From Eubacterium sp. (lineage in GTDB: Bacteria; Bacillota_A; Clostridia; Lachnospirales; Lachnospiraceae): a stretch of 5,642 nt of DNA. The translations under genes and the position numbers were made by a program. Location of the stretch: the NCBI GenBank assembly GCA_023663915.1, contig JAMPGN010000252.1, forward strand, positions 1 to 5,642, given 5' to 3'. The notes beneath the pieces are model-generated. The model saw only the letters and a list, made by a program, of their open reading frames with translations, was not told the DNA's origin and did no database searches. Shown here in pieces: positions 1 through 5,642 of the stretch. Positions within the stretch are counted from its first letter, which is position 1; each line of letters starts with the position of its first letter.

Positions 1-1029
1 GGTAACGGCCTCATCAAGACGCTCTAGGTTTAGTCTTCCGTCCTCAATCGCTTCCAAAATATACGAATAATCTTCTTCAAAATTTGTATTAAAAACCAAC
101 ATATCATTACCAGCCATGATTGCCGCCGGTATCGCGAGGCGTCTTTCCATCGCCATACAGAATCCGCCCATGATCGTGGCATCCGTCGTAATCACCCCAT
201 TAAAACCAAACTTCTCACGAAGCACTCCGGTGAGCAGCTCCCTGCTAAGTGATGCCGGTAGACAGTCTTCAAACTTCAATGCTGGATTGATCTCCATCTC
301 AACATCAGGCTGTACGATGTGTCCGACCATAATACTCATCAGATCCCGCTCGATCAGGTTCTGGTAGATCCGTCCATAGGAGTCATACCATTCCTTGGCA
401 GACAAGGAATTATAGGATGGGTGCAAATGCTGATCCCGATAATCCACGCCGTCTCCCGGAAAATGCTTCGCACAAGCCGCAATCCCGTTTTCCTGCATGA
501 CCTCTGCAAAAATCTCCGTTCCCCGCATAACCTTATCCAAATCACTTCCGCAAGTCCTCACATTGGTGATCGGATTCCGGAAATTCCTATCCAAATCACA
601 CACCGGTGAGAAGGTCCAGTTGATGCCGACTTCTCTTCCTTCCGATGCCGTAGACAATGCAAAATGCTTTGTCTGTTCCGGATCATCTGCTGCCGCTGCC
701 AGCATAGGCCAGCCAAACAACGTGCCGTCACTGATTGCCCCTGCTCCGCCTTCCTCAAGGTTTGCCGCCTTTAACAGCGGAACCGGAGTTACCGCATCCA
801 ACTGTGCATATTTTCTCCGAATCTCCGCCGCCGGCTCCGGACGAAATAAAACGCTGCCCACTCGTCCTGCCTTAACCATTTCTTCAAGCTGCTCTGGCGA
901 GTAATCCCCACCCATTACGCAGAACAACTGACCGGCTTTCTGTTCTATACTGAGCATGGCCAATGTATCTTCCACCCACTGAATCTGCTTCGTGGATAAA
1001 TAAAAAGGTCGTTTTCTCAAATCAATCAT
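1..1029 (-). CDS. Family 3 glycoside hydrolase, NagZ-like N-terminal barrel (3' partial)
   Basis: The first 343 residues of a GH3 enzyme are visible; the frame is open to base 1, so the C-terminus is outside the window. The (beta/alpha)8 domain is recognisable in order: LSIEQKAGQLF (26-36), NLEEGGAG (90-97), GREVGINWTFSPVCDLDR (131-148), NPITNVRTCGSD (152-163), AKHFPGDGVDYRDQH (187-201) and GFNGVITTDATIMGGF (275-290) with the probable nucleophile Asp283. The 188-201 motif follows the NagZ-type pattern KH(F/I)PG(H/D)G-x4-D-(S/T)-H, which supplies an Asp/His acid-base dyad (here Asp199 and His201), except that Gln200 replaces Ser/Thr. This favours a beta-N-acetylglucosaminidase-like subgroup over classical beta-glucosidases. 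No signal peptide is seen. The start at 1029 has AAGGAG seven bases upstream and lies 18 bases after the UbiX stop. In this operon a phenolic or plant glycoside is a possible substrate; peptidoglycan-derived GlcNAc sugars are the family default. Whether a C-terminal sandwich domain follows cannot be seen. Confidence 0.85.
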   Translation of the reverse strand, partial: MIDLRKRPFYLSTKQIQWVEDTLAMLSIEQKAGQLFCVMGGDYSPEQLEEMVKAGRVGSVLFRPEPAAEIRRKYAQLDAVTPVPLLKAANLEEGGAGAISDGTLFGWPMLAAAADDPEQTKHFALSTASEGREVGINWTFSPVCDLDRNFRNPITNVRTCGSDLDKVMRGTEIFAEVMQENGIAACAKHFPGDGVDYRDQHLHPSYNSLSAKEWYDSYGRIYQNLIERDLMSIMVGHIVQPDVEMEINPALKFEDCLPASLSRELLTGVLREKFGFNGVITTDATIMGGFCMAMERRLAIPAAIMAGNDMLVFNTNFEEDYSYILEAIEDGRLNLERLDEAVT

Positions 1030-1036
1030 ATCTGCT

Positions 1037-1042
1037 CTCCTT
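1037..1042 (-). promoter_or_regulatory. Ribosome binding site of the GH3 gene
   Basis: AAGGAG on the minus strand, seven bases before the ATG at 1029, within the 18-base gap after the UbiX stop. It fixes the GH3 start and supports co-transcription. Confidence 0.7.
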
Positions 1043-1047
1043 CGTCC

Positions 1048-1608
1048 TTAAGTCCATCGTCTCATTCCTTCGGGTTCCAATTCAAACTGGTCAAGAATTT
1101 TTCCCGCGATATGCCTTGTGCAGTCCTCAAGCGTCTCCGGATGGTTATAATAGCTTAACACCGGCGGGATAATCACAGCGCCCAACTGACTTGCCTCGTA
1201 CAGATTGCGCAGGTGGATTGTCCCAAACGGACATTCCCTTGCCACAAGAACCAGCTTACGCCTCTCCTTCAAGGTAACATCCGCCGCACGCAGTAGCAGA
1301 TTCTCACTGTATCCGCTGACGATCCCTGCCAGTGTCTTCATGCTGCATGGAACGACCACCATTCCTATGGTACGGAATGTTCCACTGGCAGGACCCGCGC
1401 CGATATTGTCATTTTCATAGACCACATCTGCAAGGCCTCTGATCTCTGCCAGCGTAAACTCCGTCTCAAGAGGAATTGTCATCTCGGCGCCCCGGCTATA
1501 TACGAGGTGCGACTCGATATCTGGTATGTTCTTTAGTTGTCTTAACACTTCCACGGCAATCGGAATCCCGGAAGCTCCGCTCATTCCTACGACAATTCTC
1601 TTTTTCAT
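1048..1608 (-). CDS. lpdB: UbiX-like flavin prenyltransferase (LpdB-like partner of the decarboxylase)
   Basis: Likely joins a dimethylallyl group to reduced FMN, making the prenyl-FMN cofactor for the UbiD enzyme encoded just upstream. With the start at 1608 it has 186 residues, the usual UbiX/PAD1/LpdB length. Motifs: VGMSGASG (7-14), the N-terminal FMN-binding loop; PCSMKTLAGI (87-96) followed by NLLLRAADVTLKERRKLVL (103-121) and ARECPF (123-128), the core UbiX signature; then PPVLSYYN (148-155) and CTRHIAGKILDQ (163-174), carrying the conserved C-terminal Tyr and Arg region that binds the prenyl phosphate. An in-frame ATG at 1617 would add Met-Ile-His, but AAAGGA directly abuts it. The ATG at 1608 sits nine bases from that site and gives the family-typical MKKRIVVG start. 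It lies between the decarboxylase and GH3 genes. The family is near certain; service to the adjacent UbiD protein is inferred from linkage. Confidence 0.92.
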   Translation of the reverse strand: MKKRIVVGMSGASGIPIAVEVLRQLKNIPDIESHLVYSRGAEMTIPLETEFTLAEIRGLADVVYENDNIGAGPASGTFRTIGMVVVPCSMKTLAGIVSGYSENLLLRAADVTLKERRKLVLVARECPFGTIHLRNLYEASQLGAVIIPPVLSYYNHPETLEDCTRHIAGKILDQFELEPEGMRRWT

Positions 1609-1617
1609 ATGAATCAT

Positions 1618-1623
1618 TCCTTT
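1618..1623 (-). promoter_or_regulatory. Ribosome binding site that decides the UbiX start
   Basis: AAAGGA on the minus strand has zero spacing to the ATG at 1617 but nine bases to the in-frame ATG at 1608. A ribosome positioned here would use the second ATG, so the protein should begin MKKRIVVG, as in other UbiX proteins. Confidence 0.65.
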
Positions 1624-1659
1624 ATCTGTTCTACCTAAACAGCATAACCTGCTGCATCT

Positions 1660-3138
1660 CTACCATTCTTTTAACCAATGATGCGGATCCACCTCAAGAA
1701 ACTCTGCTCTTTTAAAATGTTCTCTCAAATGGAACGGTACCGTACAGTCATAGATCGTCTTACAACTGATCCCTACATCACTGATCGAATCTGCGTATTC
1801 CGGTGAAGAGGACGGGTCAAGCGGGTGGCACCTTACCCCCGGAATCGTGAGAATGTCTTTGTCACCCTGGAACCTGGTATTCATCGCCCACAAAACATCA
1901 TCACTGTCAAAGGGATCTACATCCTCATCCACCAAAATAACGTGTTTCAGTTCTGGAAATGCCGAGAATGCAAGCAGCGCCGCCTGTCTCTGTTTTCCCT
2001 CGTCCGTGTGTACGCGCTTGGCAACCTGAAGAACCGCCATGTACTTACCACACCCGGATCGGTGTGCATATACGTTTTTCAGTTCGCCAGGCAATGCTTT
2101 CTCAATCATTCCGATGATGCTTGCCTCTGTGGGGATGCCCTCCATGTTCAGATGCTCGTCACTGGGACCGATGCAGGTCTGCATGATCGGATGCTGCCTG
2201 TGTGTCACCGCATGAACCTTGATTAACCATGTTTCATTGCTTGCGCGGCCGCTGTATCCCGGAAATTCCGGCATCGCAAAGCCCGTATGGGAATTTTGGT
2301 CTTCCACGATACGCCGTCCAGTGATGATCTCACCCTCGATCACATATTCCGCGTTTGCAATGGCATTTTCCTTGATCGTCTTACACTTGACCAACTCTAC
2401 CGGATGCTGTCGCAACGCGCCCGCAATCGACAGTTCATTAAAACCAAGCGGTGTGGTCGGTGGTTCAAAACATGCCGTGATCTCAATCGCCGGATCAACG
2501 CCGATGCTAATGGAAATCGGTAGATTCTGTCCCAGCTCCTCCGCTCGCTCCGCCATCGCTCCGATATGTCTAGAACCCGGCTGTAAGAAAATGGACAGTT
2601 CATCCTTGGACTGAATACACATTCTATGAATGGTAACATCGGATTCTCCTGTATCGGGATGGGTTGCATAACACATCCCCAGAGTAATGTAGGGTCCTGC
2701 ATCCGTCGGTGTATTGGTCGGCGCAGGCACCAGCCTATTCAGATCAAAGTCCGGATCGGTCGCTAAATGAACCACTTCCTGGCAGGGCGCCGGGGTTTCG
2801 ATGACAACCGGCGCCACCGCATGGTCAACACAATCATGTAACAGCCAGCCCAGTCGGTCCGGTTCGCATCCGAAAAGCATGCCTACCCGTTTACGACTTG
2901 CCAATAGCCCAATCAGCACTCTCGCATCCTCAAATCCTTTGATGTTATGGAACATCATTGCCGGACCCTCAATCGTCGTGGGACGCATAACCGTCCCGCC
3001 GGCTCCTACATAACGGTATACTCCCGAAAGTTCCGCTTCCGGATTGACTTCTACATCGGTCTCTACATACTGCCCTTTCTGTGTCTTAAGGAACGCAAGT
3101 GCAGTCCTGAGATCTCGTATATCTGTTCGATTATTCAT
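1660..3138 (-). CDS. lpdC: UbiD-family hydroxyarylic acid decarboxylase, probably gallate decarboxylase (LpdC-like)
   Basis: Non-oxidative decarboxylase dependent on prenylated FMN; with the tannase upstream the best guess is gallate to pyrogallol plus CO2, in the cytoplasm. Its 492 residues match the roughly 490 of L. plantarum LpdC. Visible UbiD landmarks: VTIHRM with the probable catalytic Arg172, GSRHIG with His191 and GFNELSIAG with Glu235 (the probable metal/prFMN ligand set), and VDEDVDPFDSDDVLWAMNTR (403-422), the usual C-terminal-domain signature. In place of the EGPFGE loop of ferulate/UbiD-type enzymes it has EDQNSHTGFAMPEFPGY (279-295), with Glu291 the likely catalytic acid. I regard this loop as typical of the hydroxybenzoate/protocatechuate/gallate decarboxylases. 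The start at 3138 has AAAGGAG overlapping the tannase stop, suggesting translational coupling. The UbiX gene follows 51 bases downstream. Vanillate, protocatechuate or 4-hydroxybenzoate decarboxylase are the alternatives; family certain, substrate inferred. Confidence 0.88.
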   Translation of the reverse strand: MNNRTDIRDLRTALAFLKTQKGQYVETDVEVNPEAELSGVYRYVGAGGTVMRPTTIEGPAMMFHNIKGFEDARVLIGLLASRKRVGMLFGCEPDRLGWLLHDCVDHAVAPVVIETPAPCQEVVHLATDPDFDLNRLVPAPTNTPTDAGPYITLGMCYATHPDTGESDVTIHRMCIQSKDELSIFLQPGSRHIGAMAERAEELGQNLPISISIGVDPAIEITACFEPPTTPLGFNELSIAGALRQHPVELVKCKTIKENAIANAEYVIEGEIITGRRIVEDQNSHTGFAMPEFPGYSGRASNETWLIKVHAVTHRQHPIMQTCIGPSDEHLNMEGIPTEASIIGMIEKALPGELKNVYAHRSGCGKYMAVLQVAKRVHTDEGKQRQAALLAFSAFPELKHVILVDEDVDPFDSDDVLWAMNTRFQGDKDILTIPGVRCHPLDPSSSPEYADSISDVGISCKTIYDCTVPFHLREHFKRAEFLEVDPHHWLKEW

Positions 3139-3147
3139 ATGAATGCC

Positions 3148-4881
3148 CTACTCCTTTCCCAAGATTTTTTCGATCCACGAAATCACCTCGCCCGAATAAT
3201 CCGCCTCGCTGTGCGGCTGGTCCCAGACAAGCTGATAGTCCACGTTCTTCCCTGCACCCGCAAGCAGACATGCCAGCGTCATGCTGACCGTAAAGGAAGT
3301 ATCCGCATCTCTCGCGCCTACCCGAATCCTGTAATGAGCCGCCTGCACGCTCTTCTCCTCCGTTCCGATAAAGTGAAAAGGATTGATCAGATACATCTGC
3401 CTTGCCAGTTCATCATTCCCGGCAACCTCTGCATATCCCACATAGTACTTCGCATACTCTTCCGGGAACCGATCTTTCAATTCTTCGATCGCTGCCGCAA
3501 TATCGGAGTTAAAATGTCGCATCGGAATGTCCGTATTTCCGAAGACCTTATTCTCCCCGCTATCCATTCCTAAAATATCAAAAGAGGTACACGGTTTCAT
3601 TCTGCGCCTGTAATTTAAAATATAATTGTCAATATCGCTGACCACAGCCTGCTTTCCATCCCAGGAAAGCCATGCTTTCTTATCCTCGCCCTGTACCTCC
3701 ATCATGGGCGGCACAAACGGATGCGCTTCCACTCCCTTAGGCGGTCTCGATACCATATCGCCCAACGTCGGCGGTTCCATAGGTTTGTCGCCAAAGGGCG
3801 GTTCTCCCACGGGCGGCTTGTTTAGCGCTACGCCAGGACCTGCATGCCCCTGCATCATGTCCGCATCGTCATCCTTTTTACCCATCGGCGCTGGCGCCTC
3901 GTAGGTGTAATTACCGCTCAGATAATCTTCCACGCTATACTGCTCCGCCAATTCTCCTTTTTGAAGTTTTGTCAGATAGATCGTCGCAGATTCATTTAGT
4001 TTGCCCATCAGATAGTCCAGACCGCTTCCGCTTCTTCCATCTTCTCCAATCACTAAGTCTTCTCCCGTCTCCGGATTTTTCAAGCCCAGACGGTTAAAAT
4101 ATGCGATATAATCCCGTGACAGGATAGCGGAAAGTGCCTCTTGAAACGGTGTCATCACACCAGCCGGTCCTGCGGACGACGCTTCATTTTCCTTATCTGC
4201 GCCGAATAACCATTCATAGGCAAGATCTGCATGTTCTAAATCCACAATCGGACAATAGATCTGTGATGCATAAACCGCGTCACTTTCATCCATGAACGCT
4301 CCATTTGCCTTCAGATAAGGAATAAAATTGTCATTGTCTCCGGTCACTGCAAGAAGCGTGGACATTGCCCCGCCTGCACTCCAGCCGATGGAAATCAATT
4401 TATCCATATCGCCCGGAATTGCCTTGCGGTTATGTCTTATAAAACGAATACCAGTCTTTAAATCTACCAGATTGATCGGGGCTTTCCCCACATATTTCCC
4501 CTCGCCATCCTTCGATTCATGTCCCCTGTTTCCGCAAGTGACATAGACATATCCCTGCTTAAGATAAGGATGCGCAAAGCATCTGGGTCCATCCAGCCAC
4601 ACATGAGGCATCTGCATATAGCCCGCCGAATTATTCTCGAAAATAACCGGCGCTGTTGCCGCGGTATATCCGTTCATTTCTCCTTCGGAATCAATCTCGC
4701 CCTTTCCGTTCATATACGCTTCCGGCACAAAGATACTAAGTCGCTGAAATTTAGGCGTTGTCGCTCTGTCCGTATAGAGAATATCCTCTAAACACCACAC
4801 ACGATATTTCTCATCAAAAAACCATGCATCTTTGCAATCCGCCAATTCCATTGTTTTATTCGTAATCGGTATTTCAAACAT
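3148..4881 (-). CDS. Tannase, subtype B (galloyl-ester hydrolase), intracellular
   Basis: Likely hydrolyses galloyl esters (gallotannins, galloyl glucose, alkyl gallates) to gallic acid plus the alcohol. The 577-residue protein is an alpha/beta hydrolase with nucleophile motif GWSAGGA (Ser168). Near the C-terminus, GARDADTS supplies Asp525 and Asp527, and DQPHSEAD supplies His557. In Lactiplantibacillus plantarum tannase (recalled: Ser163, Asp419, His451, with Lys343, Glu357 and Asp421 binding gallate) the Asp-to-His distance is 32 and the Lys-to-Glu distance 14. Here Asp525-His557 is 32 and Lys429-Glu443 is 14, and the Asp-x-Asp pair is kept. The Ser-to-Lys distance is about 80 residues longer, mostly through a Pro/Gly/Met-rich stretch at about 330-397. 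There is no signal peptide, so it acts in the cytoplasm. The start at 4881 has GGAGG eight bases upstream. The UbiD gene follows after 9 bases. A feruloyl or other phenolic esterase with a tannase fold is the alternative. Confidence 0.88.
   Translation of the reverse strand: MFEIPITNKTMELADCKDAWFFDEKYRVWCLEDILYTDRATTPKFQRLSIFVPEAYMNGKGEIDSEGEMNGYTAATAPVIFENNSAGYMQMPHVWLDGPRCFAHPYLKQGYVYVTCGNRGHESKDGEGKYVGKAPINLVDLKTGIRFIRHNRKAIPGDMDKLISIGWSAGGAMSTLLAVTGDNDNFIPYLKANGAFMDESDAVYASQIYCPIVDLEHADLAYEWLFGADKENEASSAGPAGVMTPFQEALSAILSRDYIAYFNRLGLKNPETGEDLVIGEDGRSGSGLDYLMGKLNESATIYLTKLQKGELAEQYSVEDYLSGNYTYEAPAPMGKKDDDADMMQGHAGPGVALNKPPVGEPPFGDKPMEPPTLGDMVSRPPKGVEAHPFVPPMMEVQGEDKKAWLSWDGKQAVVSDIDNYILNYRRRMKPCTSFDILGMDSGENKVFGNTDIPMRHFNSDIAAAIEELKDRFPEEYAKYYVGYAEVAGNDELARQMYLINPFHFIGTEEKSVQAAHYRIRVGARDADTSFTVSMTLACLLAGAGKNVDYQLVWDQPHSEADYSGEVISWIEKILGKE
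3151..3157 (-). promoter_or_regulatory. Ribosome binding site of the decarboxylase inside the tannase 3' end
   Basis: AAAGGAG is formed by the last tannase codons just before its TAG stop (3150-3148). The ATG of the UbiD gene at 3138 is 12 bases further on, slightly long but workable. Ribosomes finishing the tannase would end next to this site, so translation of the two enzymes is probably coupled. Confidence 0.65.
3691..3894 (-). other. Pro/Gly/Met-rich low-complexity insert within the tannase
   Basis: This encodes residues about 330-397 of the tannase. It opens with an Asp-rich patch (KKDDDAD), then carries repeated PP-x-G-(D/E)-like units (KPPVGEPPFGDKPMEPP, then PPTLGD and RPPKG) and ends PFVPPMMEVQGED. 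At the DNA level GGCGGT/GGCGGC-like units recur on the plus strand. It lies between the nucleophile half and the gallate-binding Lys/Glu part, where tannases carry their lid domain, and accounts for most of the extra length over the L. plantarum enzyme. Confidence 0.6.
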
Positions 4882-4889
4882 TCAAGTTC

Positions 4890-4894
4890 CCTCC
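4890..4894 (-). promoter_or_regulatory. Ribosome binding site of the tannase gene
   Basis: GGAGG on the minus strand, eight bases before the ATG at 4881, supports that start over the internal Met at residue 11. It lies in the 32-base gap after the esterase stop codon. Confidence 0.7.
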
Positions 4895-4906
4895 ATGATC
4901 TGTTTC

Positions 4907-4912
4907 ATTATA
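4907..4912 (-). promoter_or_regulatory. Possible -10 box for an internal tannase promoter
   Basis: The minus strand reads TATAAT exactly, directly after the start of the esterase stop region and about 26 bases before the tannase ATG. A transcript starting some seven bases downstream would just include the GGAGG site. No convincing -35 hexamer is visible at 16-18 bases (ATGGAT or TGGATG at best), so this is weak and could be chance in an AT-rich gap. Confidence 0.2.
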
Positions 4913-4913
4913 A

Positions 4914-5642
4914 TCAAAGCTGCTTCTCCATCCATGCCCACAAAACATCCATATTCCAATCGCTGGAATATTCTTTGTCTTCATGATCTGCATCCGGCAG
5001 CGGAACAAACTCCACTCTGCCCTGTCCCAACTTCTGATAGACTGCATTTACAAGGTTCACGCTCTGCATAAAGGGAACCAGTCTGTCCATACATCCGTGT
5101 TCCACCAGAAGCGGCGCCATCCCCTCATTGATATAGGTCATGGGATTCGCCTGATTCAGCCATTCGTCGGAAAGTTCCGGAAGCGGACCGCCCATATAGG
5201 TTGATTCCGCAGAAACAGCCTTGTCATGATCCACAAAACTGACACCGTTTGCTCTCGCCTGATCGTCCATTTTCCGAAAATCAATCGGACCAAACTGGTC
5301 AATCGCAAAAAGTACATTGCATTCTGTATCAAAAGTCTTGCCTTCTTCTCCCGGAAACTCACCACTTTGAATGTTCATGCCAAGCATCGCCGCCAGATTC
5401 CCGCCTGCCGATCCACCGATCACGGCAATCTTATCAGGAATCACATCGTATTCTGCTGCATGTTTTCTTAAGAACCGGATCGCCTCCCGGCAGTCTAAGA
5501 CAGCCGCCGGGAAGATTGCTTCGCCACTTAACCGGTATTCAATCGAACCTACCGCAATCCCTTTTTCAAGGAATTTCAAATAGGTATCCATATGGTCGTC
5601 ACGCTTGTCTCCCATACCGAATCCGCCGCCATGAATATGGAG
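4914..5642 (-). CDS. Alpha/beta-hydrolase esterase, BD-FAE/HSL-like (5' partial)
   Basis: Probable cytoplasmic carboxylic-ester hydrolase. The reading frame stays open to the right edge: nine codons precede the Met at 5615 and encode LHIHGGGFG, so that Met is internal and the true start lies outside the window. Numbering from the first visible residue, HGGGFG (4-9) is the oxyanion-hole motif of the HSL/feruloyl-esterase-like group. GGSAGGN holds the nucleophile Ser78, HGCMDRLVP holds the probable acid Asp186, and DADHEDKEY holds the probable base His220, so the triad is complete. About 242 residues are visible; relatives have roughly 260-320, so only a short N-terminal part is missing. It ends in TGA 32 bases before the tannase gene, which suggests co-transcription. 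The family (BD-FAE/alpha-beta hydrolase 3) is clear. The substrate is not: the neighbours suggest a phenolic or acetyl ester on a plant compound, but that is inference. Confidence 0.9.
   Translation of the reverse strand, partial: LHIHGGGFGMGDKRDDHMDTYLKFLEKGIAVGSIEYRLSGEAIFPAAVLDCREAIRFLRKHAAEYDVIPDKIAVIGGSAGGNLAAMLGMNIQSGEFPGEEGKTFDTECNVLFAIDQFGPIDFRKMDDQARANGVSFVDHDKAVSAESTYMGGPLPELSDEWLNQANPMTYINEGMAPLLVEHGCMDRLVPFMQSVNLVNAVYQKLGQGRVEFVPLPDADHEDKEYSSDWNMDVLWAWMEKQL

Follow-up and report, generated by a model that had tools for sequence, protein, structure and literature searches.

In S. gallolyticus, the genes sgdC, sgdB and sgdD are clustered close to the tannase gene tanB, and all of them are induced by methyl gallate (PMC4218992). 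In L. plantarum, lpdC and lpdBD are located >1 Mb apart (PMC4218992), and LpdD is a chaperone that binds the prenyl-FMN (prFMN) species prFMNH2 (PMC10865409). The phosphorylases of glycoside hydrolase family 3 (GH3) are retaining enzymes with a His/Asp dyad, which release a beta-glycosyl phosphate, and a 2022 review counts only two characterised members (PMC8950772). The stretch analyzed here, contig JAMPGN010000252.1 of the Eubacterium sp. assembly GCA_023663915.1, is 5,642 nucleotides long and is called the window throughout. According to the list of open reading frames, it carries five genes, all on the minus strand, for a BD-FAE-type esterase, a subtype B tannase, an AroY-like UbiD, a UbiX and a GH3 enzyme. 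It is fairly likely that they are the middle part of an operon directed at small galloyl esters and their glucosides, in a bacterium close to Lachnospiraceae, in which gallate would be freed and decarboxylated and glucose would be recovered through phosphorolysis by GH3.

Organization of the locus

The five genes of the window are as follows:

4914..5642, minus strand: esterase (Est) of the BD-FAE / Abhydrolase_3 type, 242 amino acids inside the window, 5' end beyond its edge
3148..4881, minus strand: subtype B tannase, 577 amino acids
1660..3138, minus strand: UbiD-family decarboxylase, 492 amino acids
1048..1617, minus strand: UbiX/PAD1-type flavin prenyltransferase, 189 amino acids
1..1029, minus strand: GH3 enzyme, N-terminal 343 amino acids, 3' end beyond the window

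The intergenic gaps, taken in the order Est, tannase, UbiD, UbiX and GH3, are 32, 9, 42 and 18 nucleotides, with the gap between UbiD and UbiX becoming 51 instead of 42 nucleotides if the second Met of UbiX is its start. From this spacing we infer that the five genes are co-transcribed as an operon, and since both outer genes (Est and GH3) are incomplete, its ends lie beyond the window. A scan for terminator-like sites returned four in the window against a shuffle mean of 4.3, with none in the gaps between the genes. The Pfam families detected were BD-FAE, the N-terminal, middle and C-terminal domains of UbiD, Flavoprotein and Glyco_hydro_3.

Tannase, UbiD and UbiX

The tannase passed the curated cut-off of the NCBIfam model tannase_B, NF041556 (334.6 bits against 300), and Pfam gave only a weak BD-FAE match. 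Its best relatives in the PDB are the tannases 3wa6 and 4j0g, of which 3wa6 is of the L. plantarum type, and in the alignment with 3wa6 the motifs for catalysis and galloyl binding contain its residues S168, K429, E443, D525, D527 and H557. We take the aligned Ser, Asp and His to be catalytic and the Lys, Glu and Asp to bind the galloyl group. An alignment of 20 relatives shows no variation at Ser168, Lys429, Glu443, Asp525 and Asp527 and almost none at His557. When a genome collection was scanned with this alignment, 106 stretches matched, 81 of which encode a relative, and the best 80 were kept as tannase loci. These loci come from Lachnospiraceae, Clostridiales, Oscillospiraceae and other Clostridia, mostly from metagenome-assembled genomes (MAGs), with several of rumen, rectum or cecum origin. 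The Ser motif was found in all 80 loci and each of the other four motifs in 75–77, with the misses including cut-off fragments (L061, L075) and also near-full-length proteins, for example those of L070, L036 and L080. The family and the residues thus point to gallate release, and as no signal peptide was evident by eye, the tannase is probably intracellular. One protein (P0021) that is 80% identical to the tannase of the window carries Tyr at the position of the His that is presumed to be catalytic in the others (QPYSEA against QPHSEA), and is possibly an inactive tannase or the result of a sequencing error.

The tannase also contains an insertion, located as follows:

3730..3882, minus strand: Pro-rich tannase insertion, residues 334–384, in the AlphaFold2 model m032e3f46b684

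The mean predicted local distance difference test (pLDDT) score of this model is 75.5, with residues 334–384 below 50, and residues 291–406 fall outside the alignment to 3wa6; the insertion is predicted to be flexible and is a probable lid. A conserved QGHAGPGVAL-like motif lies in this low-confidence Pro-rich loop, and the segment is duplicated in P0065. A second tannase, of subtype A, occurs near the module in three of the 80 loci, namely L076 (897–2843), L009 (14846–16798) and L058 (3576–5282). That of L076 scored 727.3 bits against a cut-off of 550 and has, by eye, a lipoprotein-like N-terminus, which suggests that its subtype A and subtype B tannases are an outside/inside pair. The match in L009, as translated, begins just ahead of an in-frame stop, and probably upstream of the true start.

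The closest solved relatives of UbiD are the AroY protocatechuate decarboxylases, with 57.9% identity to AroY 5ny5. All five AroY active-site residues that could be mapped among those named essential in PMC5656893 are kept, the residues R190, E291, H329, K365 and H438 of UbiD corresponding to R188, E289, H327, K363 and H436 of AroY; for a sixth, Arg181 (PMC5656893), this numbering leads to a Ser in 5ny5, and no mapping was possible. EcAroY decarboxylates both protocatechuate and gallate, with a slight preference for protocatechuate (conversion in 1 h of >99% and about 83%, respectively; PMC5656893), and because it takes both substrates, the sequence of UbiD does not assign it to one of them. 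UbiD is thus predicted to be a prFMN-dependent decarboxylase of the AroY/LpdC type, acting on gallate and/or protocatechuate. Both its closest solved relatives and the preference of EcAroY would suit an operon whose targets are protocatechuoyl or other hydroxybenzoyl esters, in which UbiD converts protocatechuate to catechol with gallate as a side substrate, but this reading is unlikely given that UbiD is linked to a tannase whose presumed galloyl-binding Lys, Glu and Asp are kept. Galloyl esters are also commoner in plants than protocatechuoyl-type esters, which we count against it as well.

The UbiX protein passed the NCBIfam model ubiX_pad (201.3 bits against a cut-off of 108.9), and its best PDB relatives are 1sbz and 6qlg. 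As a flavin prenyltransferase linked to UbiD, 42 nucleotides downstream of it, UbiX would supply the prFMN for the decarboxylase. The small subunit VdcD (NF041205) was considered as a missing subunit of the decarboxylase and was rejected, with no match in any of 34 related genomes and a control match in B. subtilis.

Recurrence of the gene set across Clostridia

The neighbors of the tannase were assigned to families by tblastn at fixed bit cut-offs, and in many cases the contig stops a short way from the tannase. Among the 80 loci, relatives of Est (48–89% identity) were found in 46, UbiD in 41, UbiX in 32, GH3 in 41, the GPH symporter in 40, GH65 in 21 and beta-phosphoglucomutase (beta-PGM) in 20. 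The 46 loci with 5 kb on each side of the tannase contained Est in 37, UbiD in 29, UbiX in 22, GH3 in 28, the GPH symporter in 31, beta-PGM in 18 and GH65 in 14. All five families of the window occur together in 20 of the 80 loci, in eight gene orders, so the linkage is more than inherited synteny. The gene order of the window itself is kept in L001 and L076, while L079 lacks UbiX at the cut-off used.

Genes on one strand are commonly neighbors in bacteria, which would favor unrelated degradative genes brought together by chance; but with five families kept in a quarter of the loci in eight orders, around a tannase found in one of 200 sampled genomes, chance clustering was rejected as highly improbable. 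These 200 genomes were drawn from the family to which G001 belongs, the genome that carries locus L001, and were set beside 34 genomes of the 80 loci, a chosen subset from several families and mostly with long flanks, so that the comparison is a rough one. The single genome with a tannase in the family sample was G001 itself. UbiD of the AroY type was present in 30 of the 34 tannase-locus genomes (29 at E 1e-120 or better) and in 20 of the 200 sampled genomes, G001 included. GH3 of at least 57% identity was present in 30 of the 34, and in the family sample GH3 relatives at E 1e-100 were found in 21 of 200, of which solely that of G001 exceeded 56% identity, candidates being partly scored in many genomes. 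The tannase is rare, and the partner genes are over-represented in the genomes that have it.

A preliminary description, made from the letters of the window, had proposed five same-strand genes with gaps of 9–51 nucleotides, a tannase with the expected active-site residues, and a tannase, UbiD and UbiX running in one direction. With UbiX starting at its second Met the measured gaps match this range, the tannase_B score bears out the family and the alignment to 3wa6 the residues, and the set, with a UbiD of the gallate/protocatechuate type, recurs across Clostridia. The search for genomic co-occurrence of the five families that it had suggested gave the 20 loci reported above.

The GH3 enzyme and its linkage to beta-phosphoglucomutase

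The best PDB relative of the GH3 fragment is the beta-glucoside phosphorylase 5vqd (309.1 bits), and the full-length GH3 orthologue of L001 reached 459.9 bits and 44.8% identity against the same protein. Two sites of the fragment were aligned with it:

427..435, minus strand: Asp-Gln-His dyad codons (D199, H201), in the stretch KHFPGDGVDYRDQHL, which is identical to 5vqd
181..183, minus strand: predicted nucleophile codon D283, in TDATIM, aligned with D288 of 5vqd

We presume that this aligned Asp is the GH3 nucleophile. The Asp-x-His pattern was present in all 38 tannase-locus GH3s that span the site (the remaining three of 41 are too short) and in all 28 GH3 loci outside tannase loci. Beta-PGM was found in 20 of the 41 tannase loci with GH3 and in none of the 39 without it (Fisher's test about 1e-7, kinship ignored), and the label of GH3 plus beta-PGM requires at least 14 changes on the tannase tree. 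The two genes are same-strand neighbors in 15 pairs, 6–192 nucleotides apart, and the beta-PGM of L001 scored 248.9 bits on TIGR01990 (cut-off 189.4). Across whole genomes, a beta-PGM over the cut-off lies at most 3 kb from 14 of 30 GH3 genes, where about 0.09 would be expected. The window stops short of the place where beta-PGM would be expected. Because of the homology to 5vqd, the dyad and the linkage to beta-PGM, GH3 is quite probably a beta-glucoside phosphorylase.

The same operon might instead contain an ordinary retaining beta-glucosidase, with beta-PGM serving GH65 phosphorylases or other sugar routes, a reading which we consider improbable. Pfam assigns the protein to the GH3 family only and it passed no NCBIfam model, which leaves room for a glucosidase, whereas the nearest relative of solved structure is a phosphorylase that has an identical dyad stretch. 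GH65 enzymes release beta-glucose-1-phosphate by their stereochemistry, so those in 21 of the 80 loci would also yield the substrate of beta-PGM; yet all 20 beta-PGM loci have GH3, and in 10 of them the stretch examined contains no GH65, while 11 of the 21 GH65 loci have no beta-PGM. Beta-PGM also stands within about 1.5 kb of seven of the 28 GH3 relatives outside tannase loci.

Several results nevertheless count against phosphorolysis. Beta-PGM is not visible in 21 of the 41 GH3-containing loci, a point that fits a glucosidase, and 10 of these 21 have at least 5 kb on each side of the tannase, with the other 11 near a contig end. In the alignment the Asp/His dyad is also found in NagZ-type hexosaminidases, so the dyad alone is no proof of phosphorolysis; the phosphorylase status of these hexosaminidases is itself disputed. 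When GH3 and beta-PGM were tested together across 46 loci with the tree taken into account, 5.1 pairs were concordant and 0.0 discordant, and the median p of 0.0625 falls just short of the 0.05 level; tree-aware tests for GH3 with UbiD, GH3 with UbiX and GH65 with beta-PGM did not reach significance.

The GH65 genes often lie near or directly after the tannase, and that of L076 (13536–15839) has the kojibiose phosphorylase 3wiq as its best PDB match. Alpha-glucosides may be a second source of sugar where GH65 is a neighbor.

Proposed pathway and its significance

The best reading of the five-gene set is gallate release followed by decarboxylation. In the proposed pathway, small galloyl or phenolic glycosides would be imported by a GPH symporter whose gene, in relatives, lies beyond the part covered by the window, the BD-FAE esterase may take off other acyl groups, and the tannase would liberate gallate. 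UbiX would make prFMN, with which the AroY-like UbiD would convert gallate to pyrogallol. Judging from homology, dyad and linkage, GH3 would split the beta-glucoside with phosphate instead of water and yield beta-glucose-1-phosphate, which the beta-PGM adjoining GH3 in relatives would turn into glucose-6-phosphate, sparing the ATP of glucokinase. Pyrogallol might be excreted, as reported for S. gallolyticus, though this step is a guess. A more specific version, an energy-conserving tannin route, is put forward tentatively and could well prove wrong. In it, GH3 would phosphorolyse galloylated or gallic-acid glucosides, possibly including the acyl-glucoside bond of beta-glucogallin, and would pass beta-glucose-1-phosphate to a dedicated beta-PGM, with the tannase, UbiD and UbiX taking the galloyl part.

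A number of observations speak against the release and decarboxylation of gallate by this operon. UbiD scored below the NCBIfam cut-offs of TIGR00148 (227.3 against 244.85) and VdcC (459.5 against 650), and UbiX likewise scored below that of VdcB (247.7 against 290), so by score the pair does not belong to VdcBCD. The tannase diverges from the other genes in three of the 20 five-family loci, and among the 199 sampled genomes that lack this tannase, 19 have the same type of UbiD. The pathway is built on sequence, AroY acts on protocatechuate too, and the legend of the tannase pathway figure in PMC4218992 includes protocatechuate esters.

Diets rich in plants commonly contain galloyl esters, whose breakdown yields the bioactive product pyrogallol. 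The locus provides a recurrent gene signature for the route from galloyl ester to pyrogallol in Clostridia, many of which are known solely from MAGs. Should GH3 prove to be a phosphorylase, it would illustrate a way in which these bacteria may spare energy when using the sugar and would place GH3 beta-glucoside phosphorylases in a genomic context, and if the phosphorolytic tannin route is true, these rarely characterised enzymes would gain a physiological role in polyphenol catabolism. Sugar release by phosphorolysis is the most testable of the new claims.

Esterase, transporter and regulators

The esterase Est matched Pfam BD-FAE with 169.1 bits. Two close relatives, L001 and L076, also have a GPH symporter gene and divergent LysR genes in the set. 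A neighbor cluster read as LysR occurs in 47 of the 80 loci by BLAST clustering, with Pfam confirmation for two L001 proteins only, and relatives of these two at 100 bits were found in six of the 80 loci. After the module, L001 (16319–18187) encodes a LacI-type periplasmic-binding-like domain fused to a GGDEF domain. A plasmid search gave matches confined to UbiD, of about 90–113 nucleotides, in nine Rahnella records.

Comparison with known systems

The arrangement resembles tanB-sgdCBD of S. gallolyticus, where a TanB-type tannase is near UbiD (SgdC) and a UbiX-like protein (SgdB) (PMC4218992); a tannase near UbiD/UbiX is thus already known, and most of the gene set varies on tannin-degrading clusters described before. 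The preliminary description had inferred that the core steps are joined here in one transcription unit, a joining that is not new in view of the S. gallolyticus cluster, and its statement that lpdB and lpdC of L. plantarum are at separate loci agrees with their reported distance (PMC4218992). Its term "self-contained" does not suit the module, as in relatives the transporter, the regulators and beta-PGM are encoded outside the window genes, and its plain deglycosylating GH3 hydrolase gives way to the phosphorylase favored by homology, dyad and linkage. Unlike the window, S. gallolyticus has sgdD, and the passages of PMC4218992 consulted name no GH3, beta-PGM or BD-FAE esterase.

To our knowledge, no glucoside phosphorylase is linked in L. 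plantarum. Its tanB/lpdC/lpdBD system shares with the window a tannase followed by UbiD-type LpdC and UbiX-like LpdB, and differs from it in the separation of lpdC and lpdBD and in having LpdD (PMC4218992, PMC10865409). The long insertion of the tannase recalls TanALb, a ruminant Lachnospiraceae tannase in which residues 341–450 are a proposed flap-like lid (PMC8715002), a likeness by description only; the word "cluster" is absent from that paper. The literature matches listed, by title or abstract start, included none on a tannase joined with a GH3 phosphorylase or beta-PGM, subscription papers being mostly outside the search.

The AroY decarboxylases of the structures 5ny5, 5o3m and 5o3n are enterobacterial. 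These enzymes are like UbiD in the identity to 5ny5, in the five active-site residues and in the gallate accepted by EcAroY, and unlike the window in that the passages of PMC5656893 consulted mention no tannase. BglP, a metagenomic GH3 enzyme (PDB name BglX, 5vqd/5vqe), is the counterpart of the GH3 enzyme, with 44.8% identity to the L001 orthologue, the identical dyad stretch and the aligned nucleophile, and is described for cellulose-type beta-1,4 linkages and aryl glucosides (review PMC8950772). What the locus adds to the known clusters, as predicted from its genes, is a linked GH3 phosphorylase candidate, an esterase and, in relatives, a beta-PGM and a GPH symporter.

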